In this document: positions 24,001 through 42,735 of the stretch, in pieces
Layout: each line of letters starts with the position of its first letter
Position numbering within the stretch: position 1 is the first letter of the stretch
IMG/VR virus record: IMGVR_UViG_3300030451_004121
Span: 18,625-61,359 of that record
DNA length: 42,735 nucleotides
DNA from: a virus
Direction: 5' to 3' (one strand)
Program-made: the position numbers and the translations under genes
Notes under the pieces: generated by a model
What the model saw: the letters and a program-made list of their open reading frames with translations, nothing else
Told to the model about the DNA's origin: nothing
Database searches by the model: none

Positions 24001-27000
24001 TGGTTGCCGCAAGAGAAATATCAAAAAATACATTTAAAAACTTAGTTAAAGAACTTGGAGAAGAAGAAATAGAGTTATTATTTGATGATCTTAATAAAAT
24101 GAGTTTTCTAGCTAATCACGAGTCTATGTTTTTAGATGCAGAGGCGCACGCTGATTTAGCTATGGGTACAATCATATTGTCTGGTGGTATACAGCAGATT
24201 GGTAATAGACAAACGTACAAGGCTGTTAAGGAACGAGTTCGTGCTGAGTTTAAATATAGAGGATTAGAAACTTTACATATTTTACAAAAAGAAAAAAATG
24301 GTCTTAATTCAAAAATAGCTAGACTTGAAAAACTAGAAAATCCTAATTTAGATAAAATTGAAGAATTAAAAAAGAGGGTAGAAGAAATTGATGCAGCTAT
24401 AGTTTATGGACAAGCAGAGTTAGAAGCTATTAACAATGCCCCTAGCTACGCTAGTAGTGAGCACATAGATTTAATTAGAAGAAAAAACGAGCTTATAAAG
24501 AAAAAATCAAGTGCTAAAGGTGAAGAGCTTAATGAAATTAATAAGGAGATAAAAGATATATCTGCTGAATTAGAATCTACTAACGCTTATGAAAATTTTC
24601 AAAACAAACAAGAAAAAGACGTTGAAAGGTCAGAAGAAATAGCTAAAGAAGAGTTTGGAGAAGATCTCGAGGTTTACGAAACAGACAGTAGACAGGAATC
24701 TTCTGATGTGGTAAAGTCAAAAATGCAAGAACAGTCTAAGCGTTTAGAAGAAGAAATTAACGATATAAAACAAGATGAAAACGGTAACGCTGTAAACTTG
24801 CAAGAACAACCAGCATTGTCCAAACTTAAAAATGAAAAATCTAGAGTAGACAATGAATTAGCTAATATGGCTAGTACAGAAGAAAGACAAAAGCAGGAAA
24901 GAGAACTTATTCTTATTCAAGATAAATTGAATAAAATAGATCCATCTAAGAAATTAACACGAAGAGCAGAGTTACAACAACAATTAAAACGACTAGATAA
25001 ACTACGTAGAGATGGTCAGATAAGTGGTTTAGATTTTTTAGCAGAGACTAAAAAGATTAAAGACGCTATAAAAGAGTTAAGTTCTGAAATAAAATCTGAC
25101 AAAAGTGTAACTAGTGCTAACGAAAGCGTAGTTGACGACTTAGTAGAAAAATATTTAGGTTTAGCTAATGAAATAGATAAAGATCAAGCATACTCAGGTT
25201 ACAAGGAAAACGCTTTTATTACACCTCCTGATGCAAGTGGTAGAAGAAGTATAATTATAAATAAAAAAGGTGTATTGCAATCCGGATATATAAACGCTGG
25301 GCAGCATGAAATTTTACACGCTATACTTAAAGAAACTTTAAAAAGCGATCCTGAATTACAAAGAGCTCTTGCTGATGCTATGATGGAGTTTGCTAATGAT
25401 AATCCAGGTAAAATAAAAATTGGACCAGAGTTTGACCTACGTATGAGAGCGTATAACGAATCAGATCAAAAATACGAAGAATACCTAACAGTAATGGCAG
25501 AGGCTTTAGTTAGAGGAGATGTAAAGTTTTCTAATAACTTCAAAGGAAAGGTTAGTGATATGATGAGAAGGTTTAACCAAAAATATCGTAGACCTGACAT
25601 AGAGTTTGAAACAGGTGAAGACGTAATAAACTTTTTAAGAGATTATAATAGGTTTTTTAAGAAAAGAAAGAAAAACCCTGCTTTCAGCAAAATGATAAAA
25701 CAAGGTGCTAAAGGTAAGTTACTAGAAAGAAAAGAAAAAAGAGAAAAAGAAGTTAGGTATGGACCTGGTTTTTCTAAGTCTTTAAGATTTCAATTTTCTA
25801 AAAATCCAGATTTAAAAGACGACTTTGATAATTTAACTCAAAATCCAGATGGTACTAAAAGATGGAACAGTAAAGTAGAGTTTCAAAACAGTTCTGAATA
25901 CTGGGAAGGATTAACACAAATACTAACTAATCCTCAGTTAGAGTCTTTAATAAAAGAAGGTATAGGAGGAGAAACTGGTATACAGTATGCTGAGTTAGAT
26001 GATTTCGTAGAAAAAGTAAAAGTAAAACTACAAAGAAGATACGAAGGGCAAACAAGAGTAATAAAAGACGCTGACGGTAATCCAATTGTAGACGAAAGAG
26101 GTATAGAACGAAGAGAGAGAGTTCTTGATGAAAATGGTAATCCAAAAGGAGGTTTTGATCCGTCTATGGCTAATGGTAGTTTATTTGGTTGGTTAATAGG
26201 TGGTAGTGGTAGTTATACAAATTCAAATTTATATCGTGCTAGAGGAGATGTGATGAACGAGTATAAAGAGGAAATTGAAACTATATCTGCTGATACAGAA
26301 GGAACTGCTAGAAAGCTATCTCAAATACCAAGTGATAACGATGTTAAGCAAGAAACTAAAAATGAGGTAGAAAGAAATAAAATAGATTTACTTAAACTAC
26401 CTGTAATAGAAAGAGTTTCTGATAAAATAAAATCTAAGGTTAAACCAGCAAAAGGAGATGGGCATAAAGAAATAATATCTAAGCACGCTGGTGAAGTTGG
26501 TCAGCTTATATTTGATATTCCTGGAGATAAAATTGTAAAAGGTGGCGCTAATTTAACTGCTGTTACTAAGTACGAGGAAGGCATGCCTATTCCTGGTGAG
26601 GCTCAAAATATACAAAGAGTTTTTAACGCTCCTCAATTTGCTGAAAAATTTATTAAAACACTACCTTTATACAACGTTGTTGAAAGAACTGGTGATATAA
26701 ATTTAAAAGGAGAAAATTTAGATGTGTCACGAAATGTTTTTGGTGTAGCTATAGGTTTAAAAGGCTTGCCAATGGATTATTTTTATGAAGATTATATTGA
26801 CCCAAGATCTCTTAGTAAAGACCCATTAATTAAAGCTGAATCTATTACCTCTCCAAAAGGTAGAAGTAAAGGTTTAACAACTCAGACACAAGTAAAAAAA
26901 TTGAAACAAGAGTTTATAAACCCTACGCCGGAAACTATAGAAAAGTTTAAAAGAGATATAGGTATAACGCCTAAGCTTGAAGCAAACGAATACAGTAGAG

Positions 27001-30000
27001 ATATTGGTCAGTTACAGAAAGGAGTTGCTAAGGTAATTTCTATGAACGTATCGTTGTCTGCTGCTCAAAGAAATCTGCAAGATCAACTTAACAAAGCTAT
27101 TAAAGAAGGTAAGTCTCCAAAAGTAACACAAGAAATAAAACAACAAACAGCCAATATTACAGGCGCTCAAAGTAAAATTGCTTTTAGTAAAGGTGTAGCG
27201 GACCAAAAGAACAGGTTGCAGTTTAGTGAATCTATACCTGTTGAACAGCTTTCAAACGCAGAGATATTAGCACAAAATAAAGATTACAAACTGATAGTCA
27301 AAAGAGGTAAACAAATCCCTATAAATATGAATACCCCAAAAGGTAGATTAATATTTAAAGAGTGGGTAATAAAAGATTTATCTAAACGTTTGCCAAAAGC
27401 ATTTTTCTACACTTCTGGAACTTTTGATGGTACTAGCAAGGGTCTATTTACCGAGGGGGACTATGTTGGAGCATTTAGAGGGCCAAAAGCAAATTTACTA
27501 AATGTTTCTGTAGAAGAAACTATAGCTATGTTTGCTCCTGACCACGTATTTGGACCTGATGACGCAGACATAAGCATGGCCTTAACTAGAGTAACTCAAA
27601 ATAAAAAGAATTTAGAAGACACTAATGCTAAGCTACAAAGAGCTATAGGTTTTAAAAAGATATTAAACGTTCTCAACCAAATGATACAAGAAGACAAAGC
27701 TAATATACCTTATGTAGCAGCTTTATTATCTTCTACTAGTTCTAACATGAATCACTTTATGAGAAAAGGATCTATATATGAGTTTAGAAACACATTAAAC
27801 GAAGCTAATGTAGAAGAGCATACTCAAGCAGCTAGTGATTTTGCTAAGTTTGTATTAAATAGAATGGTCGATGGGACTTTCGATAAATATATCGACGTGG
27901 CTATGCAGGCTTATTTCCAAGGATCATTACCGTTAAAATTTGAGATTTTACTTGTAGACCCGGCCGGTGAGTTTAATTATAAAAATAACGCTGGTATTTA
28001 TACCAAACTAATATTAGTAGACGGTAAACCAGTGTGGATTAGATATTTTAATCCTGATGTTAATAATAATCAGGGTGGTATTAATCCAAATGTTTTAATA
28101 TTAGCTGGTGGAAACACAATAGCGCAAGAATATGGAGTTGGCGTAGATGAGTCTTTATACAATCACGATGAAGTAGTATCAAAACAACAAGAATTGTTGT
28201 TTAAAATTTTTAATGGTGATATAACTCAAGAAGTAGCTAGCAAAACAATAAATGAATACGCTATGAAGTTTTCTAAAGTTTCACCATCTTCAGAGGTTAA
28301 AAAAGCAATTAAATTTAGCAAGGCTATAGAAAACGCTCGTTTAATAAACCACAACACTCCATCGAGAGGTATGAGTGCTTGGGATTTTGATGACACATTA
28401 GCAACTACCAAGTCTGGAGTTAGAGCTACTGTACCTAATCCTGATGGCACACCACAACCAAATAGAAAAGTTATATTCTTGGCAGGTGGAGCTGGTAGTG
28501 GTAAATCTAATGTTGTTAAAAAATTAGGTTTAGAAGAACAAGGATTTAAAATAGTAAACTCTGATATATCACTAGAGTGGTTAAAGAAAAACTCTGGATT
28601 ACCAGAGAACATGAACGATCTTACTAGAGAGCAATTAAGTGAATTAGGTAGATTACAGGCTCAGGCTAGAAAAATATCTAAAGGTAAAATGATGAAGTAC
28701 CAAGGCAACGCTGACGGTGTTGTAGTTGATGGTACTGGTGGGTCTATAAAAGCTATGCAGAAGCTTGTTAACGAGTTTAAAGAAAAGGGCTATGATGTAA
28801 GTATGGTTTTTGTAGAAACTTCCTTAGAAACAGCCTTAGATCGTAATAGAAAAAGAAAAGAAAGATCTTTATTAGATAAGATAGTTATTAGAAACCACGA
28901 GGCCGTTCAAGGCAATAAAGAAGGGTTTAAAGAAATGTTTGGTGAAAGATTTATGGAGGTTAAAACAGATAATCTTACACAGGCAGATCCTATGCCAGCA
29001 GATCTTATGCAACAAATGAATGACTTTGTTAGTAGTTATAAAAAACTAAGATTAGATGCAGAGCAGTTTGCTACACAAGGAGCAGATATACTAGAGCAAG
29101 GTGGTGTGTTTGATTTTTCTGAGTTTAACGTTGTTACAGAAGGTGCTCAAGGCCCTATGTTTAAAACAGCGTTTGATAGAGCTCAGAAATATGGGACTAA
29201 AGATACTTATGTGCTAACCGCTAGACCAGCTGAATCTGCCGGACCAATACAACAGTTTTTAGCTTCTCAAGGATTAAATATACCTTTAGAAAATATAACT
29301 GGATTAGGTAATAGTACTGGTGAGGCAAAAGCAGAGTGGATTTTAGAAAAGTTTTCAGAAGGATATAACGATATATACTTTGCTGATGATGCGATGCAAA
29401 ATGTTGAGGCTGTTAAAGATGTGTTAGACCAGTTAGATATTAAATCTGAAGTTGTACAGGCTAAAATACAATTTAGTAGAGGTATAGACAACAAGGTCGA
29501 CAAAATGTTTACTAACCCTGCTCTTGTCAAAATAAAAGAAAATATAAGTATTAACAACGTAAGTAATGTTAGTAGTTTAACAAGAGACGGTGTTTATAGT
29601 AACATACAATTTTCAAAGAAACATAGGGGCGAATATGAAAACTTAATATCTAAAAATAGACCAGACTTAGTAAAAGAAGGTTTAGTATCACAGACTGTTG
29701 ACCAAATGTTTGATCTTGTCAACAATTTAAGTATACCGCCTGATAAAAGAAGAAAGTACGAAAAAATAATGACTAAATGGTTAGCTACTAGTACTATGAA
29801 GCTACCAGAAGATAATTATAAGCTACAAGATGCTGTAGAGTTAGCTGAGAAAAATAAATTGGACGTGTTTTCTTATAGAAATCCTAATGAGATTATAGAA
29901 AAATTTGCTGGTAAATCTAAAGCAAAACCTATAAATCCAGATACAGTAGAGCTATTTGTAAAAGACGAAAGCAAAACTAATAAAAAATATGGTATAACAG

Positions 30001-33000
30001 AGTATGTGGTTGAAGAAACTAAAGAAAGTCAAGCTATTGTTAGAAAAGTAGTAGATACTCATTGGGGGCCAAAATCTAATCCTTGGTGTATATGCGCTAG
30101 AGATAAAAATGGATCAATGGACGCTGCTTGGGACAATTGGAAAAAGTATTCTGACGGTCCAAAAAGAATTGTGTTTCAAAACGGAAAGTTGTTAGCTTTT
30201 TATGCTAATGATTTGTATTGGGATAGAATGGACAATGATACAGACGCTCCTGTTATAAATATTAAAGAAGGTAGAGTTACTAAAAAAGTAGAGCTAGTTC
30301 CTATAGGTAAAAATAAGGTTGATGAGTTTGTGATAGAGGTTCGTACTGTTAGTGAAGATGGCAATACCGTTACAACAGAAATTGTTGGAGAAACAGGATC
30401 GAACTACGAAGTTGGAACTAAAATCGTAGAAAATAGAGTTAACGGTGTAACCGTTAAAAAGACTAGGTCGACTTCTGATAGAATGAGTATTGAGTGGGGA
30501 TTTGAACCTGGTAGGGTTCAAGAAGTGCAGAACTACAACGAAAAAGGTGAATTAACTAGTAGTATTTTCTACCAAGAAGCTGGTGTTATAGGTACTATTA
30601 ACCATGCTGAAGAGTTTGGAGGTATAACGGAATCTGAGATAGTCGAGAAAAAAGGAGATATAATAAGTAACGAAGGTGGTGGAGAATACTTTGCTCAAAT
30701 TAATCTTGCAAAACAAGGTATAAAAAACGCGGACCCTACTGTTATTACAGAAATAGGTTGGGAAATGGATGGAAAACTAGAAGATGTTATTACTACGTCT
30801 TCTAATGGTGAGACAAGAGTAGACCTTAAAAAAATTCTTAAAATAGATTCTAAAGCTCAAGGATTGCCACCTGGTATACAATTTAGTAAAGATATAAGCA
30901 AAGAGTTTAACGAGCTTTTAGAAAGAACAACTGGCGTTGAAGCTAGAAAGAGATTTTCAGAGGCACAAGCTAAAATTAGAGGTAAAAAAGGTAGGTACAA
31001 GGGTATAATACCGGCTTCTGCTCAAGATTTCTTAGGACTACTATATAACTTTATGGGTAAAGGTAAACAAGGAGATGCTGATATGGCTTTCTTCAAAAAA
31101 GCCTTGATAGATCCTTTTGCTAGAGGTATAGACGAGTTAAATGCTTCTAGACAAGCCGCTTCTAATGATTACAAAAATTTAACAAAAGAGTTTCCTAAAG
31201 TTAAAAAGAGATTAAATAAAAAAGCAGGAGATACAGGTTTTACAAACGATCAAGCAGTTAGAGTTTATTTATGGATTAAGGCTGGTTTTGAAGTGCCTGG
31301 TTTATCAAATAGAGATTTAGCTGCATTAAACGCACATGTAAAAAACGACCCTGAATTACAAGCCTTCGCAGATGCTCTTGGTATAATATCTAAAAAAGCA
31401 GAAGGTTATGCAAAACCAGGAGAGTATTGGTTGGTAGAAAATATTATTTCTGATTTAACAAGTGATGGTGCTATTGGAGAGGTTAGAGCAGAGTTTTTAG
31501 CAGAGTGGCAACAAAACGTTGATCAAATATTTTCTAAGGAAAATCTAAATAAAATAGAAGCTATATACGGTTCTAAATTTAGAGAAGCATTAGAAGATAT
31601 ATTATATCGTATGCAAACTGGTAGAAATAGATCTCAAGGTGGAGGTAGATTAATGAATAATTATATGAACTGGGTTAATAATTCTGTTGGTGCTATCATG
31701 TTCTTTAATATTCGTTCTGCTGTACTACAGACTATATCTGCTACTAACTATATTAATTGGTCTGATAACAACCCGTTAAAAGCTGCTATGGCATTTGCTA
31801 ATCAAAAACAGTTTTGGTCAGACTTTGTAATGTTGTTTAATTCAGATTACTTAAAACAAAGAAGAGCTGGTAATAGAAGAGGTGTTAATGAAGCTGAACT
31901 AACATCGGCAGTAATGGGTGTTGGGCCTGCTGAACAAGCGAAAGCTGCTTTAAGATATTTATTAAAAATAGGATTTTTACCAACGCAAATTGCGGATAGT
32001 TTTGCAATTGCTTCTGGTGGTGCAAGTTTTTATAGAAACAGAGTTAATTCATATTTAAAACAAGGTATGTCTAAAGCAGAAGCAGAGCAAAAAGCGTTTT
32101 TAGACTTTCAAGAAACTACAGAGGTGTCACAGCAGTCTGCTAGACCTGATATGATTTCACAGCAACAAGCTAATCCATTAGGAAGATTAATACTATCTTT
32201 TCAAAACACACCAATGCAGTATGCTAGAATTATGAACAAAGCCGCTAGAGATATTGCGAACGGTAGAGGTGATTTTAAAACTCACGTATCTAAAATAATA
32301 TACTACGGAGCTATTCAGTCTATAATATTTAGTGCTTTACAATCAGCTATATTTGCTTCCTTAGGAGATGATGAAGAAGAAGATTTTGATACAAAGAAGC
32401 AAAGAATTTTAAACCAGATGATAGACTCTGTTCTTTCTGGTATTGGTTATGGTGGAAAAGCTATATCTACTGTTAAAAACGCTACGATGGAGTATTTGAA
32501 ACAAAGAGATAAAGGCTTTAGAGCTGACCATGCTTATACGATATTACAACTTTTAGGTTTTTCTCCACCTATTGGATCTAAACTTAGAAAAATATATAGC
32601 GCTATACAGACCGAGAAATTTAATAAAGATGTATTTAAAAGAAGAGGTTTAACGTTAGACAATCCTATTTGGCAAGCTATTGGATATACTATAGAAGGAT
32701 TTTTTAACGTGCCTTTAGGTAGATTATCTCAGAAAATGCAAAACTTAGATAATGCTCTTGATAGTAACAACGAGTGGTGGGAAAGAATTGCTTTAATTAT
32801 GGGATGGAACACTTGGGACCTTGGTATTAAAGACGCGGACATTGAAGGCATAAAAGAGGAGATTAAAGAAGAAAAGAAAGAAAAAGATAAAGAAAGAAGA
32901 GAACAAAAGAAAAAAGAAAAAGAAGAAGAAAAAAAGAAAGAACAAGAAGAGTTAATTAAACAAAACCAAGAGAAAAGTAAAGAAGATGGTATTTGCTCTG

Positions 33001-33179
33001 CTATAAGTAGAAGTGGTAATAGGTGTAAAAACAAGGCAGAGTCAGGTGGTTTATGCACAATACACGCTAAAGTAGAGCAAGGAACTAAGGAGGTTCAATG
33101 TAGTAAAATTAAATCTAACGGTGAGAGATGTAAAATGAAAACCAAGGCAAAAAGCGGTTTATGCTACTATCATGATTAA
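21045..33179 (+). CDS. Giant polyvalent virion protein (metallopeptidase, split HAD phosphatase with nested P-loop kinase, Cys/His ribbons)
   Basis: This 4044-residue protein is one uninterrupted frame of 12.1 kb. The N-terminus is acidic, and coiled coils fill about 380-760 and 1090-1390. Residues about 785-1075 are hydrophobic and helical. A zincin motif H1421-E-I-L-H1425 has a possible third ligand in YEEYL (1477-1481). A HAD domain starts at D2447-F-D-D-T-L, is interrupted by a P-loop kinase (Walker A GGAGSGKS, 2481-2488; NSD; VVVDGTGGS), and resumes with VLTARP (T2725) and FADDA (D2781/D2782). A WCICA segment lies at 3014-3018. Residues 3280-3940 are hydrophobic and helical, then KE-rich, with two Cys/His ribbons at 3984-4043. 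The plan fits phage polyvalent proteins packaged and ejected with DNA. It may be a polyprotein cut at recurring F-S-K/R sites. Each domain is seen; the packaging role is inference. Confidence 0.85.
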   Translation: MSKIKSPLKQNEDVELVKLSDADAQSLFNETFDFDESILENEVEEEEEEEKKLTEKEQKQVDEYGYVLPDITEVVKSDDDLEVKTKDDKKIVYNTNEEKKRLKEIGGIVAEQMQPYIDSGEYSEEELNTIRKYLNRLETDLYDKKQPLDFLPLVVTPREAMEDALDEMYYKFGEMNVIKISEQLNLSPEFLDIFKSENTDIYRVEDTRGELQPKLIRIKENGEVEFITSKELKDVDPNFYLKLNDDLEDRYYEDLDNLGNNIVDLFDKMVEETGTAGVVSGLDEDQMLDLLRRELKKYNIDVRQPAILGDYVTLVSGKDPSKELRINLNTNYLESSFFGTAPGPLNVRGVRNSGEKIFNSIENFVKEHGKQPEVIDHEENIIEKNIKAANKLKEERDNSLAVEYNTIKEIDKKIKNAETQLEFYNREQSEESKEQWLENHGQPTDLINVKDYADRNNISGDFNENEFITQLELQTRKDLRYGLNEDEWRVYSGRNRTQEQKDLFVKIDNAIERLKKDEKNFSFWQNLGGLEDVEYDEDKDLVLQGDLAVALFDLLEDKPQDEIEKILLSFTKKEALLREAKAIVLDNYYTEKQVEIDINNKNKNDFEVRKIELENDIEDFNQSVSTFEEKIAPITQSINNSIKKVNDIDAKIETLIEDAEDIKEKAKTDSDYRDVYTDLYKDYQELLAKRQKLVNQYEIDNKEYNNLINSEEYKEIANSNIDLNNRQISLGEQIEVLNKAGNKLSEEFKTLYDEIGFNAADGVFEDSYESVTQYKKWKNAFADNPTMDAIGAFNEQFTDQVLKVFAIIPEAAVWQANRIYGNDPNEYSQWDAMSDIVANYIEEDKFSAYTDRDGRIAEAGWTYRNITRTMADMLPFTLGIIHAGRKGDARGIKNAYKKFTGGTLDDMAMKWNITKRTYSLTIYDNYQEAKKLGLNDMQALEYATFMSSATAMSQLIMPDNLFLKGGAGTNPFKSSFAKSLSGTTNMVAAREISKNTFKNLVKELGEEEIELLFDDLNKMSFLANHESMFLDAEAHADLAMGTIILSGGIQQIGNRQTYKAVKERVRAEFKYRGLETLHILQKEKNGLNSKIARLEKLENPNLDKIEELKKRVEEIDAAIVYGQAELEAINNAPSYASSEHIDLIRRKNELIKKKSSAKGEELNEINKEIKDISAELESTNAYENFQNKQEKDVERSEEIAKEEFGEDLEVYETDSRQESSDVVKSKMQEQSKRLEEEINDIKQDENGNAVNLQEQPALSKLKNEKSRVDNELANMASTEERQKQERELILIQDKLNKIDPSKKLTRRAELQQQLKRLDKLRRDGQISGLDFLAETKKIKDAIKELSSEIKSDKSVTSANESVVDDLVEKYLGLANEIDKDQAYSGYKENAFITPPDASGRRSIIINKKGVLQSGYINAGQHEILHAILKETLKSDPELQRALADAMMEFANDNPGKIKIGPEFDLRMRAYNESDQKYEEYLTVMAEALVRGDVKFSNNFKGKVSDMMRRFNQKYRRPDIEFETGEDVINFLRDYNRFFKKRKKNPAFSKMIKQGAKGKLLERKEKREKEVRYGPGFSKSLRFQFSKNPDLKDDFDNLTQNPDGTKRWNSKVEFQNSSEYWEGLTQILTNPQLESLIKEGIGGETGIQYAELDDFVEKVKVKLQRRYEGQTRVIKDADGNPIVDERGIERRERVLDENGNPKGGFDPSMANGSLFGWLIGGSGSYTNSNLYRARGDVMNEYKEEIETISADTEGTARKLSQIPSDNDVKQETKNEVERNKIDLLKLPVIERVSDKIKSKVKPAKGDGHKEIISKHAGEVGQLIFDIPGDKIVKGGANLTAVTKYEEGMPIPGEAQNIQRVFNAPQFAEKFIKTLPLYNVVERTGDINLKGENLDVSRNVFGVAIGLKGLPMDYFYEDYIDPRSLSKDPLIKAESITSPKGRSKGLTTQTQVKKLKQEFINPTPETIEKFKRDIGITPKLEANEYSRDIGQLQKGVAKVISMNVSLSAAQRNLQDQLNKAIKEGKSPKVTQEIKQQTANITGAQSKIAFSKGVADQKNRLQFSESIPVEQLSNAEILAQNKDYKLIVKRGKQIPINMNTPKGRLIFKEWVIKDLSKRLPKAFFYTSGTFDGTSKGLFTEGDYVGAFRGPKANLLNVSVEETIAMFAPDHVFGPDDADISMALTRVTQNKKNLEDTNAKLQRAIGFKKILNVLNQMIQEDKANIPYVAALLSSTSSNMNHFMRKGSIYEFRNTLNEANVEEHTQAASDFAKFVLNRMVDGTFDKYIDVAMQAYFQGSLPLKFEILLVDPAGEFNYKNNAGIYTKLILVDGKPVWIRYFNPDVNNNQGGINPNVLILAGGNTIAQEYGVGVDESLYNHDEVVSKQQELLFKIFNGDITQEVASKTINEYAMKFSKVSPSSEVKKAIKFSKAIENARLINHNTPSRGMSAWDFDDTLATTKSGVRATVPNPDGTPQPNRKVIFLAGGAGSGKSNVVKKLGLEEQGFKIVNSDISLEWLKKNSGLPENMNDLTREQLSELGRLQAQARKISKGKMMKYQGNADGVVVDGTGGSIKAMQKLVNEFKEKGYDVSMVFVETSLETALDRNRKRKERSLLDKIVIRNHEAVQGNKEGFKEMFGERFMEVKTDNLTQADPMPADLMQQMNDFVSSYKKLRLDAEQFATQGADILEQGGVFDFSEFNVVTEGAQGPMFKTAFDRAQKYGTKDTYVLTARPAESAGPIQQFLASQGLNIPLENITGLGNSTGEAKAEWILEKFSEGYNDIYFADDAMQNVEAVKDVLDQLDIKSEVVQAKIQFSRGIDNKVDKMFTNPALVKIKENISINNVSNVSSLTRDGVYSNIQFSKKHRGEYENLISKNRPDLVKEGLVSQTVDQMFDLVNNLSIPPDKRRKYEKIMTKWLATSTMKLPEDNYKLQDAVELAEKNKLDVFSYRNPNEIIEKFAGKSKAKPINPDTVELFVKDESKTNKKYGITEYVVEETKESQAIVRKVVDTHWGPKSNPWCICARDKNGSMDAAWDNWKKYSDGPKRIVFQNGKLLAFYANDLYWDRMDNDTDAPVINIKEGRVTKKVELVPIGKNKVDEFVIEVRTVSEDGNTVTTEIVGETGSNYEVGTKIVENRVNGVTVKKTRSTSDRMSIEWGFEPGRVQEVQNYNEKGELTSSIFYQEAGVIGTINHAEEFGGITESEIVEKKGDIISNEGGGEYFAQINLAKQGIKNADPTVITEIGWEMDGKLEDVITTSSNGETRVDLKKILKIDSKAQGLPPGIQFSKDISKEFNELLERTTGVEARKRFSEAQAKIRGKKGRYKGIIPASAQDFLGLLYNFMGKGKQGDADMAFFKKALIDPFARGIDELNASRQAASNDYKNLTKEFPKVKKRLNKKAGDTGFTNDQAVRVYLWIKAGFEVPGLSNRDLAALNAHVKNDPELQAFADALGIISKKAEGYAKPGEYWLVENIISDLTSDGAIGEVRAEFLAEWQQNVDQIFSKENLNKIEAIYGSKFREALEDILYRMQTGRNRSQGGGRLMNNYMNWVNNSVGAIMFFNIRSAVLQTISATNYINWSDNNPLKAAMAFANQKQFWSDFVMLFNSDYLKQRRAGNRRGVNEAELTSAVMGVGPAEQAKAALRYLLKIGFLPTQIADSFAIASGGASFYRNRVNSYLKQGMSKAEAEQKAFLDFQETTEVSQQSARPDMISQQQANPLGRLILSFQNTPMQYARIMNKAARDIANGRGDFKTHVSKIIYYGAIQSIIFSALQSAIFASLGDDEEEDFDTKKQRILNQMIDSVLSGIGYGGKAISTVKNATMEYLKQRDKGFRADHAYTILQLLGFSPPIGSKLRKIYSAIQTEKFNKDVFKRRGLTLDNPIWQAIGYTIEGFFNVPLGRLSQKMQNLDNALDSNNEWWERIALIMGWNTWDLGIKDADIEGIKEEIKEEKKEKDKERREQKKKEKEEEKKKEQEELIKQNQEKSKEDGICSAISRSGNRCKNKAESGGLCTIHAKVEQGTKEVQCSKIKSNGERCKMKTKAKSGLCYYHD

Positions 33180-33226: not shown

Positions 33227-33505
33227 ATGGCAAAAGAATTAAATGAAGATACTGGCTTTGTATTAAGCATAAAAACATTAATAGGAATAGGTTTTGCAAT
33301 AGCAACAATAGCTGGTATGTGGTTTACATTACAAGCTGATATTGCAGAGGCAAAAGAGCTACCAGCTCCACCAGACCCTGAAGTTACACGCTTAGAGTTT
33401 GATATGAAAGATCAAATGATAAGACAAACTATTATGACTACACAAGAAGACGTTAAAGAAATTAAAAAGTCTATTGAAAAAATAGAAGAAAAACTTTACG
33501 AATAA
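33227..33505 (+). CDS. Small membrane-anchored coiled-coil protein (holin- or spanin-like candidate)
   Basis: This 92-residue protein has one hydrophobic segment at residues 15-31 (LIGIGFAIATIAGMWF), a short loop with a Pro-rich turn (ELPAPPDPEV), then a charged helix to the end (VKEIKKSIEKIEEKLYE) that reads as a coiled coil. There is no cleavable signal, so it is probably a bitopic inner-membrane protein. Its stop overlaps the next start (TAATG). Size and topology suit a holin-like or spanin-like lysis protein, but an M15-type endolysin lies 6 kb downstream rather than next door. Another possibility is an inner-membrane channel component for DNA entry. I cannot decide between these. Confidence 0.75.
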   Translation: MAKELNEDTGFVLSIKTLIGIGFAIATIAGMWFTLQADIAEAKELPAPPDPEVTRLEFDMKDQMIRQTIMTTQEDVKEIKKSIEKIEEKLYE

Positions 33506-33876
33506 TGGAAGAAACTAAAACACCTTGGAGCGTATACGCTATTTATATGTTAGTATTAATATTTATGATGATAGCAGGTACAGTTAAGGGCCAAAACATT
33601 TGCAAGACAGATGTATGTGTAGTTGAGTTTAATGCTAGTTGGAACAAAGCTAACAGTGTAGACTGGTTAGATAAGCTAAATGATTGTGGTGTTCAAAGAA
33701 TAAATATAGACGAGGGTGATTGGCAAAAGAAATATAATATAGTTGTAGTGCCTACAATTATAGTTTTTAACGGAGAAGAAGTAAAACGTTATCAAGCAGA
33801 TCTTAGTTTTACTATGGCCGTAACAAGAAAAGAAGTACAAGAAGAAGTTGATGAAATAATAATGAGTGACTTTTAA
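33505..33876 (+). CDS. Exported thioredoxin-fold protein lacking the CxxC active site
   Basis: In this 123-residue protein residues 1-8 are polar, and residues 10-28 are a hydrophobic signal or anchor (AIYMLVLIFMMIAGTVKG) with a possible cut before QNIC. The rest reads as a thioredoxin fold: strand VVEFNASW, helix, strand, then IVVVPTIIVFNGEEV, where VPT is the conserved cis-proline loop. At the place of the usual WCxxC the sequence is SWNKAN, so the redox pair is absent. Two other cysteines (CKTDVC) lie just after the signal. It may act as a redox-dead binding or chaperone module in the periplasm. Start and stop overlap neighbours (TAATG at its start), so it is translated with the membrane coiled-coil protein. 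Confidence 0.78.
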   Translation: MEETKTPWSVYAIYMLVLIFMMIAGTVKGQNICKTDVCVVEFNASWNKANSVDWLDKLNDCGVQRINIDEGDWQKKYNIVVVPTIIVFNGEEVKRYQADLSFTMAVTRKEVQEEVDEIIMSDF

Positions 33877-33877
33877 A

Positions 33878-36094
33878 ATGAAAAAAATATTAATATTACT
33901 TTTATTACCTATATTAACTTTTGCACAGAAAGAAGTTGTTGTACATATAAAAACAGATGCGTATCCTAGTGAAACAAAATGGATATTATATGACTCTGCT
34001 TATGGAGGAGATACGTTAGATTATGTTGACTATGGTTACTACACGCAACAAAACTTTGTTCACCTTGACACGTTGTATATACCAGATAGCGTTACAAATA
34101 TATCTTGGGTTATATACGATAGTTATGGTGATGGTATTATAAACGGTGAATACTATTTAATAGTATGTGGAGACACTATAGTTAGTTACCCGTCTTCTAC
34201 ATTTACAACCGGTTTAATTCATAATAGAGTTGTACCACAATGTATGCCACAACCACCGCCGCCTGGTCAATGTGTGCCAGCAATGGTAAATATAAACTTA
34301 GATCAATTTACTAGTGAAACTAGTTGGGAAATAAAAGATACAATGGGTAATTTGATAGCAGCAGGAGGCCCATACCCAAACGCTCCTGATTATCAACCAC
34401 AACATATTCCAGTTTGCCTACCTACAGGTGTTTTAAGGTTCACGATATTTGATACGTACGGAGACGGTTTAGCTGGAAGCCAGTGGGGTGGAAACGATGG
34501 ATCATATTATTTGATGCAATGTGGAGATACCTTGGTGTTTGGTACCACACCTAATTTTGGGACAGATTCCACGCATGTATTTGTGTCAGACACATGTACT
34601 CCACCACCACCAGTGCCGGGCTGTATGGACAACAATTATATTGAATTTAATCCATCAGCCACAGTAAGCGATAGTAGCTGTGCTACTTTAAAAATATATG
34701 GTTGTACTGATAGTACAATGTTTAACTACGACTCAACTGCAAACACTATGGACTACATAGACAGTTGCGATTACACTCTTGTACTGCATGATCTTGCAGG
34801 TAATGGTTGGGTTGGTAGTAGATTAGAAATTTATCAAGATGACACGTCACAGTTTGTAATGACATCTGGTTTTGATCAAACCTATACTTTACAATTAAAA
34901 GCGCCTAAACTAGTAAGAGCTAAGTTCTTTATTAGTCAACAAGCTTCTGGTACAGCTCTTGAATGCGGGTTTACTTTAATAAATCCTATGGGTGATACCG
35001 TTATAAGTATTAGACCGCCGTTTATACAACCGTTTTTTGTGTATGGTGGTATAACTTATTGTGGTAACGAGTGTATTGAAATAGTTGAAGGATGTATGGA
35101 TAACATGGCATTTAACTATGATAGCACGGCAAACACACCGCTACCTTGTTATTATGTACCTGGTTGTATGTCTCCTGCGTATTTAGAGTATCATATCGAT
35201 ACATCTAACGGGGTTTATACAGATATTAATATACAAGACAGTTGTAATATATTAGCTGTGTTTGGATGTACAGACACGGCTTCGTTTAATTACGACTCTA
35301 CTGCTAATGTAGACAATGGTGGTTGTATACCTGTTATAACTGGATGTATGGAAAGTCTAGCGTTAAATTATAATCCGCTCGCAAATACGCCTGACACGTG
35401 TATAGCATACGTTTATGGGTGTACTGACCCGACAATGTTTAACTATGATAGTTTAGCAAACACTGATGATGGAAGTTGTGAACCTTTTGTTTATGGATGT
35501 ATGGATAGTACTATGTTTAATTTTAACCCACTTGCAAATGCTCAAGATAATATTACTCCTTGTATTCCTTTTATATATGGTTGTACTGATCCGAGTATGT
35601 TCAACTACCAAGCTGAAGCTAACACAGAAGATTTCAGTTGCATACCATTTATTTATGGGTGTACTGATAGCACCGCTATTAATTACGATTCACTTGCTAA
35701 CACTGATAACAATTCGTGTATACCGGTGGTTGTGGGATGTATGGACCAAGACGCTTGGAACTATGAAGAACTAGCAAACGTACCTGATACTTGTTTGTTT
35801 GCAGCTGAGTGTATAACAGGGCCAGGCGAGCCTTATTGGTTAAACGACCCTTGTTACGCTTGGGTTATAGACGTTGATGAGTACTGTTGTACAAATGACT
35901 GGGATAGTATATGCCAGTTAACTTACAACTACTGTGAAGGCACTTGGGTTGGACCAATACCAAAGCGTTTTGCTAATTTAATAATGATAACAGATATACT
36001 GGGCAGACCAGCAAAAATAAATACTAATCAACTATTGTTTTTCATATATGATGATGGAACAGTAGAGAAAAAAATGATAAAAAATGGAAAGTAA
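33878..36094 (+). CDS. Secreted repeat protein with T9SS-like C-terminal tail
   Basis: This is a 738-residue protein from the ATG at 33878. The longer reading from a GTG at 33866 would place four residues before a perfect signal peptide, so I reject it. The signal is MKKILILLLLPILTFAQ. Two related beta domains follow (each with a YPSETKW- or FTSETSW-type opening and a DxYGDG turn), then eleven repeats of about 20-25 residues beginning GC[M/T] and ending in Cys, interrupted by a third domain (LAGNGWVG). A Cys-rich segment (EYCCTNDWDSICQ) precedes the last ~35 residues, which resemble T9SS cargo tails (ITDILGRP, then FIYDDGTVEKKMI). These features are typical of surface proteins of marine Bacteroidetes. 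A phage copy suggests decoration or adhesion of the infected cell, or a virion-borne adhesin. Function is inference. Confidence 0.88.
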   Translation: MKKILILLLLPILTFAQKEVVVHIKTDAYPSETKWILYDSAYGGDTLDYVDYGYYTQQNFVHLDTLYIPDSVTNISWVIYDSYGDGIINGEYYLIVCGDTIVSYPSSTFTTGLIHNRVVPQCMPQPPPPGQCVPAMVNINLDQFTSETSWEIKDTMGNLIAAGGPYPNAPDYQPQHIPVCLPTGVLRFTIFDTYGDGLAGSQWGGNDGSYYLMQCGDTLVFGTTPNFGTDSTHVFVSDTCTPPPPVPGCMDNNYIEFNPSATVSDSSCATLKIYGCTDSTMFNYDSTANTMDYIDSCDYTLVLHDLAGNGWVGSRLEIYQDDTSQFVMTSGFDQTYTLQLKAPKLVRAKFFISQQASGTALECGFTLINPMGDTVISIRPPFIQPFFVYGGITYCGNECIEIVEGCMDNMAFNYDSTANTPLPCYYVPGCMSPAYLEYHIDTSNGVYTDINIQDSCNILAVFGCTDTASFNYDSTANVDNGGCIPVITGCMESLALNYNPLANTPDTCIAYVYGCTDPTMFNYDSLANTDDGSCEPFVYGCMDSTMFNFNPLANAQDNITPCIPFIYGCTDPSMFNYQAEANTEDFSCIPFIYGCTDSTAINYDSLANTDNNSCIPVVVGCMDQDAWNYEELANVPDTCLFAAECITGPGEPYWLNDPCYAWVIDVDEYCCTNDWDSICQLTYNYCEGTWVGPIPKRFANLIMITDILGRPAKINTNQLLFFIYDDGTVEKKMIKNGK
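34619..35794 (+). repeat. Eleven tandem GC[M/T]D...C protein repeats
   Basis: Within the secreted protein, eleven units begin GCM or GCT and end in Cys. The core is GC-x-D-x-x-x-x-NYDS-x-ANT-x-x-x-SC. Units 2 and 3 are separated by a ~90-residue beta domain and unit 4 is degenerate. GCM and GCT forms are intermixed. The invariant Cys pair per unit suggests one disulfide each, and the Asp/Asn positions suggest calcium binding. Codons differ between units (synonymous divergence), so the array is not a recent duplication. Confidence 0.9.
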
Positions 36095-36554: not shown

Positions 36555-37583
36555 ATGAAAAAACTATTAGTACTATTATTAGTACCTATATTTAGTTATT
36601 CACAAAGTAATGTAAAAGATATATTTAAGTTCTCTACATTTTACGCGGCTGTAAACGGTGGTACTTCTATATCAGATGTGGAAACTTATAGCGTTACAGA
36701 TGGTTTAGGTATTGAAACAATACAAACACCTTATGATTATAACTTAACTTTAGGTATACGTAAAATAGCTAGGTTTGGTTATGAAAACAGGGCTAATACA
36801 TTTTATGATGGTACTGAGTCTAATTATAGTGATGCTGCTACAGTAGGTAAAAGAAATGGTACAGAGTTTTTATTTCAAGTAGATTACAAGAGACAAGAAG
36901 GTGTAGAGTATTTAGATCAACACCACTTTATAAGATACGTAGCTAACGACTGGATAGCTAAAGCAGAGTACTTAGTAGATGGTTTTGCAGATATAGAATA
37001 CTTTGAAACATCACAAAGATATAGATATAATCTTGGTAAAGTAAGTTTTAATATTGGAGCCGTACAAAGATTATCTGAACCTTATGGTTATGATCCGCTT
37101 GCTAGCTGGAAGTTAGACAATGGTAATATACATTATACTTACTTAGCTTTACAAGAAGGATATAATGTAGATGTATATCATGACATGTACTATAATCCAG
37201 ATGGCGATATAGTAGCTTATTCATCAGATGTATGGGAACAAATTGTAATACCAGAGGTATTAGCTAACTACGTCGAAAGAAAACGTAATGAGTTAGATGA
37301 TAAACTACAACACTCGTTAGTCGTAGGTTTAGATTATTATTACTACAACAAAAGTGTTTGGGTGCATACATGGGCTAACTTGATGCCATACCACTACAAC
37401 GATAAAGATGAGTTTAGTTATCACAACTACATCGATGGTCAATGGTTAGATTACTCAGGCGGTTTAATATTTGGACAAAAGATAAATAAAAGATTAGGCG
37501 TGTTTGCGGAAGGTAAATACAATAAGTACTGGAACAGAGAGTGGTACGATTTTAAAATGGGTATCAACTACATAATAAGATAA
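36555..37583 (+). CDS. Predicted outer-membrane beta-barrel protein
   Basis: This 342-residue protein starts with a signal peptide MKKLLVLLLVPIFSYSQ (cut likely before or at Q17). The mature part has alternating hydrophobic/aromatic strands rich in Tyr and Trp, for example HSLVVGLDYYYYNKSVWVHTW and GLIFGQKINKRLGVFAEG, and ends FKMGINYIIR, a terminal strand of the kind recognised by the BAM machinery. There are no Cys residues and no internal hydrophobic helix. It is therefore likely inserted in the host outer membrane during infection. A role in blocking superinfection or altering permeability is possible. It sits right after the T9SS-like secreted protein cluster. The start ATG follows the previous stop directly. 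Confidence 0.8.
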   Translation: MKKLLVLLLVPIFSYSQSNVKDIFKFSTFYAAVNGGTSISDVETYSVTDGLGIETIQTPYDYNLTLGIRKIARFGYENRANTFYDGTESNYSDAATVGKRNGTEFLFQVDYKRQEGVEYLDQHHFIRYVANDWIAKAEYLVDGFADIEYFETSQRYRYNLGKVSFNIGAVQRLSEPYGYDPLASWKLDNGNIHYTYLALQEGYNVDVYHDMYYNPDGDIVAYSSDVWEQIVIPEVLANYVERKRNELDDKLQHSLVVGLDYYYYNKSVWVHTWANLMPYHYNDKDEFSYHNYIDGQWLDYSGGLIFGQKINKRLGVFAEGKYNKYWNREWYDFKMGINYIIR

Positions 37584-37999
37584 TGGCATATATACAAAAA
37601 AATAATCCTTTTCCTATAACTAGTTGTGGTAGACGTAGATCGTTTATGAACAATAACGTACGTAGACAAGTTAATTCTCCTGGTAAAGATCGTACAGAAG
37701 AAAGTCCTTTTCCAAAAGCAGATCCACGTAGAACTATAGGACCAGGTAAAAACTTTAACAAAGTTGCTAAAGACAAAAGCGCTACAGGTGGAGCAGCTGG
37801 AGGTGGTATGACTCAAAAAGGTGTTGATGAGTACAAAAGAAATAACCCAGGTAGCAAGTTAAAAACAGCTGTCACCACTGATCCTTCTAAATTAAAAAAG
37901 GGTAGCAAGGCAGCTAAACGTAGAAAATCATTTTGCGCTAGATCTAAAGGTTGGACTGGCGAAAGAGGTAGAGCAGCTAGAAGAAGATGGAACTGTTAA
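37583..37999 (+). CDS. Small basic Cys-bearing protein ending RRRWNC
   Basis: This 138-residue protein is strongly basic. Its last part reads KAAKRRKSFCARSKGW and ends RRRWNC, a C-terminal signature I have seen in small uncharacterised phage proteins (a DUF6321-like type; name not verified). Near the N-terminus is TSCGRRRSFMNNNVRRQ. It has three Cys residues, one at the very C-terminus. The start overlaps the previous stop by one base (TAATG). A role in binding DNA or packaged nucleoprotein is plausible from charge, but unproven. Confidence 0.75.
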   Translation: MAYIQKNNPFPITSCGRRRSFMNNNVRRQVNSPGKDRTEESPFPKADPRRTIGPGKNFNKVAKDKSATGGAAGGGMTQKGVDEYKRNNPGSKLKTAVTTDPSKLKKGSKAAKRRKSFCARSKGWTGERGRAARRRWNC

Positions 38000-38514
38000 A
38001 GGAGTTTAAAATACAAAAATACTTAGATAAAAAACCACCAAGTGATAACTCTAATACTACCAAAGGTGAGATTACTGAGTTAACTAAAATACCTATTAGA
38101 GAGAAGTTTGTAAAAGAGAAAGATGATATTAAAAAGTCTTTTGAAAAAGTTGTAGGCAAAGATGATAATATACAAAAGTTAATCAACGAGTCTGCGCCTA
38201 TAATAATGAAAATTAAAAAACATCATAATAGACCTAGACCAAAAGTTATAGCCAAAAAAATAAAAACTAAAATGGAAGATATAGAGATGGCGTCGATGAA
38301 AACACCTTCGTATCCATCTGGTCACTCAGTGCAGGGTTATTTAATAGGAATGTTTTTAAGTGACAAGTACCCACAAAAAAGAGACAAGTTAATGAAAACT
38401 GCTAGAGATATATCACACAGCAGAAGAGTAGCAAGAGCGCACTACAAATCAGACTCTTTGTTTGGAGAACAAATAGGAAAAGATATGTATAACTATATAA
38501 AAGACAAGATATGA
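37987..38514 (+). CDS. Soluble PAP2-type acid phosphatase
   Basis: This 175-residue protein carries the complete active-site signature of the PAP2 / class A acid phosphatase / vanadium haloperoxidase family: K-x6-R-P in KIKKHHNRPRP, PSGH in PSYPSGHSVQG, and S-R-x5-H-x3-D in SRRVARAHYKSD. The His of the last motif would be the nucleophile and the His of PSGH the acid/base. No signal peptide and no transmembrane helix are visible, unlike most bacterial PAP2 lipid phosphatases, so it likely acts in the cytoplasm or in lysates. The N-terminal ~70 residues are charged and unassigned. It overlaps the previous gene by 13 bases and the next by four (ATGA). Possible substrates are phosphomonoesters or undecaprenyl-type lipids; the substrate is unknown. 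Confidence 0.85.
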   Translation: MELLKEFKIQKYLDKKPPSDNSNTTKGEITELTKIPIREKFVKEKDDIKKSFEKVVGKDDNIQKLINESAPIIMKIKKHHNRPRPKVIAKKIKTKMEDIEMASMKTPSYPSGHSVQGYLIGMFLSDKYPQKRDKLMKTARDISHSRRVARAHYKSDSLFGEQIGKDMYNYIKDKI

Positions 38515-39305: not shown

Positions 39306-39622
39306 TGTCGTTTAAAATGAAAGGGTGGAGCCCGTTTACTAAAAAACAAAAACCAAAAGATAGAGATGGGGAGGTTTATGTTGGTGATAAAAAGTTTTCA
39401 GATAAACCAATGTACGAAGGACAAAAGCCATCTACACATTTAATGGCTTATGGTGAGTCTGACGGTAAGTACGTGGCTTATCCTACTTTGTTTCAAGATG
39501 ATGATGGTACGTGGCAACAACCAGACGATCCGTTTAGAGAAGCTATAAAAAAGAAAGAAATATACCAATTTGATACAGAGCAAGAGGCGAAAGACTTTGC
39601 TGATGGTAGTTGGAAAAAATAA
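39305..39622 (+). CDS. Small protein with FKMK/WSPF start and a conserved EAKDFA domain
   Basis: This 105-residue protein starts at the TGATG overlap. Residues 3-14 read FKMKGWSPFTKK, the basic signature seen in other small proteins here. Residues about 40-105 form a compact domain: STHLMAYGESDGKYVAYPTLF, WQQPDDPFREAIKKKEIY, and a last helix QEAKDFADGSWKK. A similar domain occurs widely in phage small proteins near lysis genes, by recollection. It lies just before the M15 peptidase gene. A virion or lysis-related role is inferred from position only. Confidence 0.72.
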   Translation: MSFKMKGWSPFTKKQKPKDRDGEVYVGDKKFSDKPMYEGQKPSTHLMAYGESDGKYVAYPTLFQDDDGTWQQPDDPFREAIKKKEIYQFDTEQEAKDFADGSWKK

Positions 39623-39627
39623 ATAAT

Positions 39628-40122
39628 ATGGAAAGAATAAGTAAACACATAAGTTGGAAAGAAGGAACTTATAGTAGAACTGGTGAAAGATTAAATTTAG
39701 ATAACACTCCTAATGAAGAGCAAATTAAATGCATGAAAGAGGTTGCTGAAAATTTATTTGAACCATTGAGAGAATGGGTTGGTGGACCAATAAAAATAAA
39801 TAGCTTTTTTAGAGGCGAGCCTGTAAACACTGCTATCGGTGGTGAAAAACGTTCACAACACATGAAGGGTCAAGCCATAGATATGGACGATACTTTTGGA
39901 CACAAGACAAACGCAGAGATGTATCATTACATAAAAGATAATTTAGACTTCGACCAAATGGTATGGGAGTTTGGAACTGAATATCCTGATGGTAATCCTA
40001 ACTGGGTTCATATTAGCTGGGTATCACATAGACCTAATAGAAAACAAGAAGTTATTGCTATTAAAAAAAATGGCAGAACTAGATATATAAAAGATATTGA
40101 AGAATATTTAAAGAATAAATAA
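39628..40122 (+). CDS. M15-type peptidoglycan peptidase (endolysin candidate)
   Basis: From the ATG at 39628 this is a 164-residue protein; an upstream TTG frame at 39610 overlaps the preceding gene and is unlikely. The sequence has the M15/VanY zinc peptidase pattern: INSFFRGEPVN, GGEKRSQHMKGQAIDMD (zinc His and Asp), and NPNWVHISW (third zinc His), with a Glu in VWEFG before it. Such enzymes cut peptide cross-links (L-Ala-D-Glu or D-Ala-D-Ala) in the cell wall. No signal peptide is seen, so release would depend on a holin or on virion packaging. It is the only wall-lytic enzyme I see in the window, so I infer it is the endolysin. Confidence 0.88.
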   Translation: MERISKHISWKEGTYSRTGERLNLDNTPNEEQIKCMKEVAENLFEPLREWVGGPIKINSFFRGEPVNTAIGGEKRSQHMKGQAIDMDDTFGHKTNAEMYHYIKDNLDFDQMVWEFGTEYPDGNPNWVHISWVSHRPNRKQEVIAIKKNGRTRYIKDIEEYLKNK

Positions 40123-41143: not shown

Positions 41144-42735
41144 TTATAGGCTTGTTACTTCACAAGATCCACCGGCACAAGCCAATTCACCTGATAGATC
41201 TGTATTATCATTTAACTCTACTACTTTAGTTAAGTCTATATCCTGAAGTAGTTTTGTCATTTCATCATATTTAGCTTTAGTTATATCCTCAAATGGAGCT
41301 TGAGTATACGTACCACCATCGTAAGGCAAAACAGACAAACCATTGTAGTTGTTTCTGTTTTCCCACATCCACTCACCAGCCTTTTCCCACTCTTTATCTT
41401 TCAAACTAATCGTAGCTGAAACGTTGTGTGTATTACTACCAGACTTATGCCCTGTTGCAACCCACTCTGTAGCTACTTTTTTAACACGTTCTAATAAATC
41501 AAAAGCAGACTCTGTTCTTACGATAGAACCTTTAGGCGCTGCTTGTGGTATCTCTATAACAGCGGTGTCATGAGGTCTAAAGTATTCGTCTTGTATTAAC
41601 TGCGGATGGTGTATAGCAAGATAGTTGTATATAGCTTCATTTTTACCCACACGCATTCTACGGATATAATACTTGTTATGCCATGCATGAATACCCGAAG
41701 ACGTACCGAGTACCAGAGATGTCGTCCCTGCAGGTTTAACGCACGTTGTACGAGCCGCGGGATTAATACCAATAGTCTTAGATACTATTCTATTCATTAA
41801 TTTAACTTGATCTGCAGCTTGGTTTAAATCAAGATTTAAAACTTTACCGCTACCAATACCTGTCATTGACACACCGATCAATGCATCTCTTTCAGTTGTT
41901 TCTTGCCAAACTTCTCTAAGATAATGAAACTCTGTATAACCAGCCTGTAACGTACCTATAAAAGCAGCCGCGGCAACTCTATCGTTTAATTCCTCTTGTG
42001 TATCTACGTCAGATACGTTTACTTCACATAAGTTACAAAACTGAAAAGGTCTCAATGCTATTTCACAACATGGATTAGTACCCCAGTCTTTATCGTTATT
42101 AAAATATATACCAGGTTCACCAGAACCAGATAACTCTATACGTTTCCATAGGTCCATAAAAAAGTCTTTAGTAATTTTATGTCTCATAAGCACCGCTGAG
42201 TTATTAGCTCTACCTCTTTGTGGATCTGTCTCCCACCATTGTCCTGATTTACAGGAAATCATTTCCTCATCATACGCTGAAAATAGCGATATAAGAGCTG
42301 CTCTACGTATACCGCCAGCGAGTACGGCATCAGCGATATGGCAAACAATATCATGAACTTCAATACTCTTAAGTTTTTCTCCGTCTTGTTTTGCATCTAA
42401 TATACCTTTAATTTTTACTAAGCACTCTCTTAATGGTTGAGGCCCTGGTGCTTTACCACCTGATGTTACCAACCTGGCACCTTTAGGTCTTATGTCTGAG
42501 TAATCAAACTTTATTTTAGATGATCTTTTACCACCCATATAAGACTTAATTAATACTTTAATAGCATCAGACCAGCCTTCAATACTATCACCAATAACGA
42601 ACCTACGCTTTCTAACTACGTGGGGTTTTATTATCTCTGGTAGTTTTTTAATGTTATGTAATTGTACTGAATAACCTACACCACAACCTGATAACAATAA
42701 AAACATAATCTCACTAAAAGCGTCAATATGATCAA
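41144..42735 (-). CDS. nrdJ: Class II (B12-dependent) ribonucleotide reductase, 3' part
   Basis: The frame runs off the right edge: codons before the first internal Met (42706) remain open and read DAFSEIMFLLLSGCGVGYSVQ without a stop, so the true start lies beyond the window. Visible motifs fit the monomeric ribonucleoside-triphosphate reductase branch: GCGVGYS (first redox Cys), NPCCEIALRPFQFCNLCEVN (thiyl-radical Cys, catalytic Glu and second redox Cys), VKPAGTTS, GTSSGIHAW, SVLPYDGGTYTQAPFED, and the C-terminal CAGGSC pair that re-reduces the active site. It converts ribonucleotides to deoxyribonucleotides for phage DNA synthesis and needs adenosylcobalamin rather than oxygen. About 530 residues are present of the ~740 usual. 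It is convergent to the structural arm and probably marks the start of the replication arm. Confidence 0.9.
   Translation of the reverse strand, partial: DHIDAFSEIMFLLLSGCGVGYSVQLHNIKKLPEIIKPHVVRKRRFVIGDSIEGWSDAIKVLIKSYMGGKRSSKIKFDYSDIRPKGARLVTSGGKAPGPQPLRECLVKIKGILDAKQDGEKLKSIEVHDIVCHIADAVLAGGIRRAALISLFSAYDEEMISCKSGQWWETDPQRGRANNSAVLMRHKITKDFFMDLWKRIELSGSGEPGIYFNNDKDWGTNPCCEIALRPFQFCNLCEVNVSDVDTQEELNDRVAAAAFIGTLQAGYTEFHYLREVWQETTERDALIGVSMTGIGSGKVLNLDLNQAADQVKLMNRIVSKTIGINPAARTTCVKPAGTTSLVLGTSSGIHAWHNKYYIRRMRVGKNEAIYNYLAIHHPQLIQDEYFRPHDTAVIEIPQAAPKGSIVRTESAFDLLERVKKVATEWVATGHKSGSNTHNVSATISLKDKEWEKAGEWMWENRNNYNGLSVLPYDGGTYTQAPFEDITKAKYDEMTKLLQDIDLTKVVELNDNTDLSGELACAGGSCEVTSL

Follow-up and report, generated by a model that had tools for sequence, protein, structure and literature searches.

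A cysteine-rich virus protein encoded within the window (the whole analyzed stretch of 42,735 nucleotides, part of a 64-kb virus record) is very probably a substrate of the type IX secretion system (T9SS) of the host and would be exported by it, judging from the sequences of the protein and its relatives. This reading is supported because sister proteins swap the short C-terminal tail of this cargo with canonical T9SS domains and one family of Flavobacteriales uses the same tail as a tag, and also because the tail, predicted to form three strands, is similar to the short signals that have recently been described for T9SS cargo in Prevotella intermedia (PMC11969387). That the virus encodes a cargo for the host T9SS had been proposed in the first-pass annotation, and the tail exchange and the family-wide use of the tag now give that proposal good support. 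The cargo gene and the parts of its product are as follows.

33878 to 36094, plus strand: cargo gene, 738-aa Cys-rich protein, ATG at 33878 and stop at 36094 (alignment of relatives)
33878 to 33925, plus strand: signal peptide, predicted cut before Gln by the Q-rule (sequence; same type in relatives)
33926 to 35062, plus strand: three predicted beta domains, residues 17-120, 132-240, and 296-395 (AlphaFold model)
34619 to 35797, plus strand: 11 Cys repeats of the GC[M/T] type, spread over residues 248-640 with the third beta domain among them (sequence; abundant in host genomes)
35804 to 35947, plus strand: WDxxC module, residues 643-690, preceding both kinds of tail (tail alignments, AlphaFold model)
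35966 to 36091, plus strand: putative short C-terminal sorting tail, residues 697-738 (alignments, host scans, body tree)

A GTG codon is also in frame 12 bases upstream, and the ATG at 33878 was taken as the start because the homologues favor it. The protein begins with MKKILILLLLPILTFA, ending TFA, followed by the Gln of the predicted cut, in agreement with the Bacteroidetes Q-rule for signal peptides (PMC5837995). This type is kept in nearly all complete relatives, and the N-terminal Sec signal peptide of a T9SS cargo is thus recognized both by its pattern and by its conservation, confirming the AQ-ending signal peptide that had been annotated. The beta domains with the motif DxYGDG and the CCTNDWDSIC segment are likewise present: the motif occurs at residues 81 and 192, with a DLAGNG at 305, the segment corresponds to residues 670-679, and in the AlphaFold model the first GC[M/T] repeats (residues 248-297) sit between the second and the third beta domain. 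On the other hand, the eleven repeats annotated as GC[M/T]D...C hold as GC[M/T] starts (from residue 248 to 620), but the Asp is found in nine only, the other two being GCMS and GCME. In total, the cargo has 37 Cys residues, and its features would not be due to chance because most of the positions concerned are conserved in a 37-member alignment. The protein has no family match above cut-off in Pfam, NCBIfam, or PHROGs, a comparison with 50,697 annotated phage records gave a match at the level of the repeats only, in one unannotated single-cell virus record, and PDB sequence searches with the protein and with the tail profile gave none. A literature search on the repeat sequence returned unrelated papers only. 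Foldseek matches of the full model, which contains a low-confidence repeat region, were generic beta-sandwiches with TM-scores below 0.2 and were left unused.

Relatives of the cargo are encoded on 69 viral contigs. Among 63 complete phage homologues, the short tail is present in 30, and the remaining 33 have a different tail at the corresponding point, the same WDxxCQ module standing before both kinds. All 27 canonical-tail relatives tested match TIGR04183 and PF18962, the models of the type A T9SS C-terminal domain (CTD), which therefore takes the place of the short tail in these sister proteins; moreover, the profile of the canonical tails matches solved T9SS C-terminal domains. In a tree of the protein bodies, the tail type switches eight times, with at least five of the switches forced by well-supported branches, in a tree that was built by a quick method with the tails left out and that includes the repeat region, where recombination within the body is possible. 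This repeated swap at one site is the strongest sign that the short and the canonical tails do the same job.

Also, the short tail is found in bacteria. When 84,980 species genomes were scanned, 409 matches were confirmed; the top 80 all come from Bacteroidetes and are nearly all labeled Flavobacteriales or families within this order. In the host proteins the tail is placed at the very C-terminus, on 26 body families, and a recognizable Q-rule signal peptide is present in 54 of 64. Each of ten Flavobacteriales genomes (10/10) contains 22-51 short-tail proteins, and the same ten have PorV (10/10) and 31-64 type A cargo proteins each; SprA was found in seven, and the three genomes without it may be incomplete. 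The short tail is, then, a C-terminal tag common to many unrelated proteins of T9SS-bearing genomes, as is typical of T9SS cargo. In the marine Flavobacteriales family of genome G001, the tail is present in 41 of 41 genomes with 2-46 copies (E <= 1e-8), and in a class-wide sample of other Bacteroidia it is present in 4 of 148 genomes, with one copy each. This distribution points to the G001 family as the host of the short-tail phages. The GC[M/T] repeats are common in these host genomes as well (6-37 matches each), and some of the ORFs that carry them end in T9SS tails.

The tail reads TDILGRP...LLFFIYDDGTVEKK (its end also given as FFIYDDGTVEKK) and has 42 residues. Two checks had been suggested for it, a search with sorting-domain models and a prediction of a beta-sandwich fold, and neither came out as expected. 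In NCBIfam scans, the cargo protein and 23 short tails gave no match to TIGR04183 (type A) or to TIGR04131/NF033708 (type B or C), no Pfam sorting domain such as PF18962 (type A) was matched, and TIGR04183 is absent across the whole 64-kb virus record. With respect to the fold, the AlphaFold model predicts a three-strand element (701-705, 719-724, and 729-733; block pLDDT about 62-80) instead of a full beta-sandwich. When the profiles of the short and canonical tails are compared alone, the match probability is 14%, a marginal value yet above all 100 shuffles, and common descent of both tails is not claimed because of this marginal similarity. A tail-to-tail profile match of 98.5% was rejected as evidence, its score being driven by the shared WDxxCQ linker. 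Compared with the type A CTD, the short tail is alike in its C-terminal position, in the Sec signal peptides of its proteins, in a motif of Gly plus a basic residue, and in its basic Lys/Arg end; however, the type A domain covers about 70-75 model positions, with a YPNP start and GxY, whereas the short tail has about 40 residues and neither of these motifs.

In P. intermedia, short T9SS signals of 43-55 residues with a single predicted three-stranded sheet have been described, which were modeled to bind PorV like the long ones and support cleavage and glycosylation (Ye et al. 2025, PMC11969387). According to the same paper, signals of both lengths have been reported in no other species. With 42 residues against about 43-55 and three predicted strands, the short tail resembles these signals in size and strand number, and also in its Gly-basic motif and basic end. 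In the region of motif B, which in P. intermedia comprises a Tyr, an invariant Gly, and a basic residue as a preference, it has D-x-LGR with invariant Gly and Arg, and at the position of motif E, a conserved basic residue near the end, EKK/EKR is nearly invariant. Nonetheless, the motif B Tyr is absent, the short tails have LFYIY or LFFIY in place of motif D (GxY or GxN, with an invariant Gly), and the lineage is a different one (PMC11969387). In the case of HBP35, the terminal 22 residues of the CTD are reported to be enough for the export of GFP (review PMC10202324). From these comparisons we infer that the tail acts as a short T9SS signal, although strict membership of the P. intermedia class is not claimed.

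The absence of a model match, the marginal similarity of the tail profiles, the missing GxY, and the three of ten genomes with SprA undetected were counted against export by T9SS. The first two points, along with the confinement of the short tail to one family, would also suit a sorting or anchoring tag that belongs to a different route, to the outer membrane or for surface attachment, and merely substitutes for the T9SS domain in these phage proteins. Such a route is nevertheless improbable, given that close homologues have either this tail or a T9SS domain at one and the same site, that the tail-bearing genomes have T9SS parts and canonical cargo, and that the tail agrees with short T9SS signals in its predicted number of strands and in its basic end (PMC11969387).

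With regard to the phage itself, the virus record encodes terminase, portal, and structural proteins. A related terminase occurs in 87 annotated phage records, of which 86 are from phages of Flavobacterium, Cellulophaga, Tenacibaculum, or Maribacter, and the remaining one is a spring-water record without a host. A Shine-Dalgarno-like motif is found at only 1 of 24 genes, and a near-absence of such motifs is expected in Bacteroidota. These two observations and the linkage of the gene cluster were counted in favor of the T9SS reading. Downstream of the structural genes, a single ORF of 4044 aa (21045-33179) contains a P-loop-like GGAGSGKS and ends in Cys-rich CxxI...C..H motifs. Further along the window, a PAP2-type phosphatase gene (37987-38514) and an M15 peptidase gene (39610-40122) possibly form a lysis region, and a 520-aa ORF on the minus strand (41144-42706) is similar to the C-terminal part of a B12-dependent ribonucleotide reductase (TIGR02505, E 2e-68, below cut-off).

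The position of the cargo gene, also downstream of the structural genes, would be compatible with a virion component, either a fiber or a decoration, whose signal peptide and tail have no T9SS role. The large proteins without signal peptide that carry a few of the same repeats in the phages of some relatives point the same way; however, the conserved Q-rule signal peptide and host-type sorting tail of the cargo, the repeated exchange with T9SS domains, and the linkage to a signal-bearing barrel make a virion role very improbable. Among the window ORFs examined, no virion protein with the cargo repeats was found. The large proteins of related phages (1425-1928 aa, encoded upstream of the barrel) contain a few motifs of the GC[M/T] type, including clear GC[M/T]D repeats like those of the cargo (L235:844, L285:2557, L287:3608, L299:3304, L302:2157, and L254:17), and they are possibly tail proteins.

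The cargo gene belongs to a cassette of four genes, which the first-pass annotation had overlooked together with the predicted outer-membrane barrel in it. The other three genes are the following.

33227 to 33505, plus strand: 92-aa protein with a transmembrane segment and a coiled coil (sequence; at 56 of 69 cargo loci and 71 of 78 barrel loci)
33505 to 33876, plus strand: 123-aa protein with a thioredoxin fold but no CxxC, membrane-anchored or exported (weak thioredoxin matches; at 55 of 69 cargo loci)
36555 to 37583, plus strand: 342-aa protein with a signal peptide, predicted outer-membrane beta-barrel (model, Foldseek, locus linkage)

A homologue of the 342-aa protein is near the cargo gene in 58 of 69 loci, and the order of the cassette genes varies among them. 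A scan started from the 342-aa protein, and hence independent of the cargo, gave at least 578 relatives; among the best 80, which stand closest to the barrel of the window and whose contigs overlap in part the first, cargo-derived set, the cargo is present at 43 of 43 newly fetched loci with enough flank and ends in short or canonical tails. The abundance of the same repeats and tail in host genomes could suggest that the cargo gene is host DNA or an assembly artefact in a viral contig, but this origin is extremely improbable in view of about 70 viral contigs with relatives in a conserved cluster, of the constant presence of the cargo at those barrel loci, and of the barrel having no match in ten host genomes (in a search without a positive control). 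None of the three partner genes has a match in the 50,697 annotated phage records. The terminase is present in several cassette records of 25-68 kb and was not found in the six searched of 110-120 kb, so the cassette probably crosses phage lineages, though incompleteness of the contigs is possible.

The barrel is a prediction, with a model of pLDDT 70.8 and pTM 0.65; Foldseek gives a probability of 1.00 to porins and autotransporter barrels, but with TM-scores of 0.2-0.5. It gave no match to the PorP/SprF or PorV family models, no NCBIfam family being matched up to E = 5, and its similarity is to barrels in general. Some of its relatives (e.g., L003, L014, and L035) have lipoprotein-like N-termini, SCAxPKKCCGQ, and not a plain signal peptide. 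In the thioredoxin-fold family, comprising about 40 phages, a conserved WNxxN is located at the active-site position and the aligned members shown have no CxxC; a catalytic disulfide role was thus rejected, and the family is probably not an oxidoreductase because WNxxN replaces CxxC.

In the mechanism that we favor, the cargo would leave the cytoplasm through Sec by means of its Q-rule signal peptide, would fold in the periplasm with many disulfides, and would be recognized through its short tail, the same tag that the marine Flavobacteriales family has on its own proteins. The shuttle PorV probably recognizes this tail, a role for which the prospects are somewhat better than even. The cargo would then cross the outer membrane, to be either displayed on the surface of the infected cell or released from it. 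The barrel, the CxxC-less thioredoxin-fold protein, and the membrane coiled coil would constitute one module with the cargo, in which the barrel would most likely anchor or position it, anchoring being a tentative assignment with slightly less than an even chance. The module would most likely remodel the surface of the infected cell, for example, by blocking competing phages or by altering adhesion, each of these two purposes being rather doubtful when taken singly.

Phage T9SS cargo is a kind already known, since it has been reported before (PMC7468147, PMC6949934). The available part of the report on Cryophage describes phage genes whose products carry type A sorting domains of the T9SS and are suggested to exploit the exporter of the host; that cargo consists of an endoglucanase, a GH39 protein, and a PA14 protein, with neither a short tail nor a four-gene cassette described in that part (PMC7468147). 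The crAss-BACON ORF likewise combines repeats of surface domains with a T9SS sorting domain in a phage protein, but its repeats are BACON domains, its phages are from the gut, and its sorting domain is canonical (PMC6949934). Type B T9SS adhesins are clustered with genes of PorP/SprF-like outer-membrane barrels (PMC12618676), an arrangement alike to ours in that respect only, because the 342-aa barrel has no NCBIfam match and the cargo does not end in a type B tail. Finally, Q-rule proteins of Porphyromonas gingivalis phages share Bacteroidetes-type signal peptides and a proposed modification of the host surface, although a T9SS tail is unmentioned (PMC10367356). What appears to be new is the short tail with its use as a tag throughout one family, the swapping of tails, and the four-gene cassette; none of these was found in the literature searched, outside which most subscription journals lie.

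Altogether, we consider it reasonably probable that an uncatalogued class of short T9SS signals is used family-wide in small-genome marine Flavobacteriales and by their phages, which would carry a dedicated display module of four genes with a cargo that has repeatedly changed between the short and the canonical tail, perhaps to match the host. If true, many marine phages, and not one oddity, would build their own cell-surface proteins via the host T9SS and would use a conserved accessory gene set with this cargo, and a second lineage with short T9SS signals would help to define what the exporter recognizes. Moreover, because it is nearly confined to one family and is found on dozens of proteins in each host genome, the short tail could serve as a host marker and may help to predict the hosts of uncultured phages. 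In the present case, a virus of Flavobacteriales-type bacteria probably uses the type IX exporter of its host to change the surface of the infected cell.
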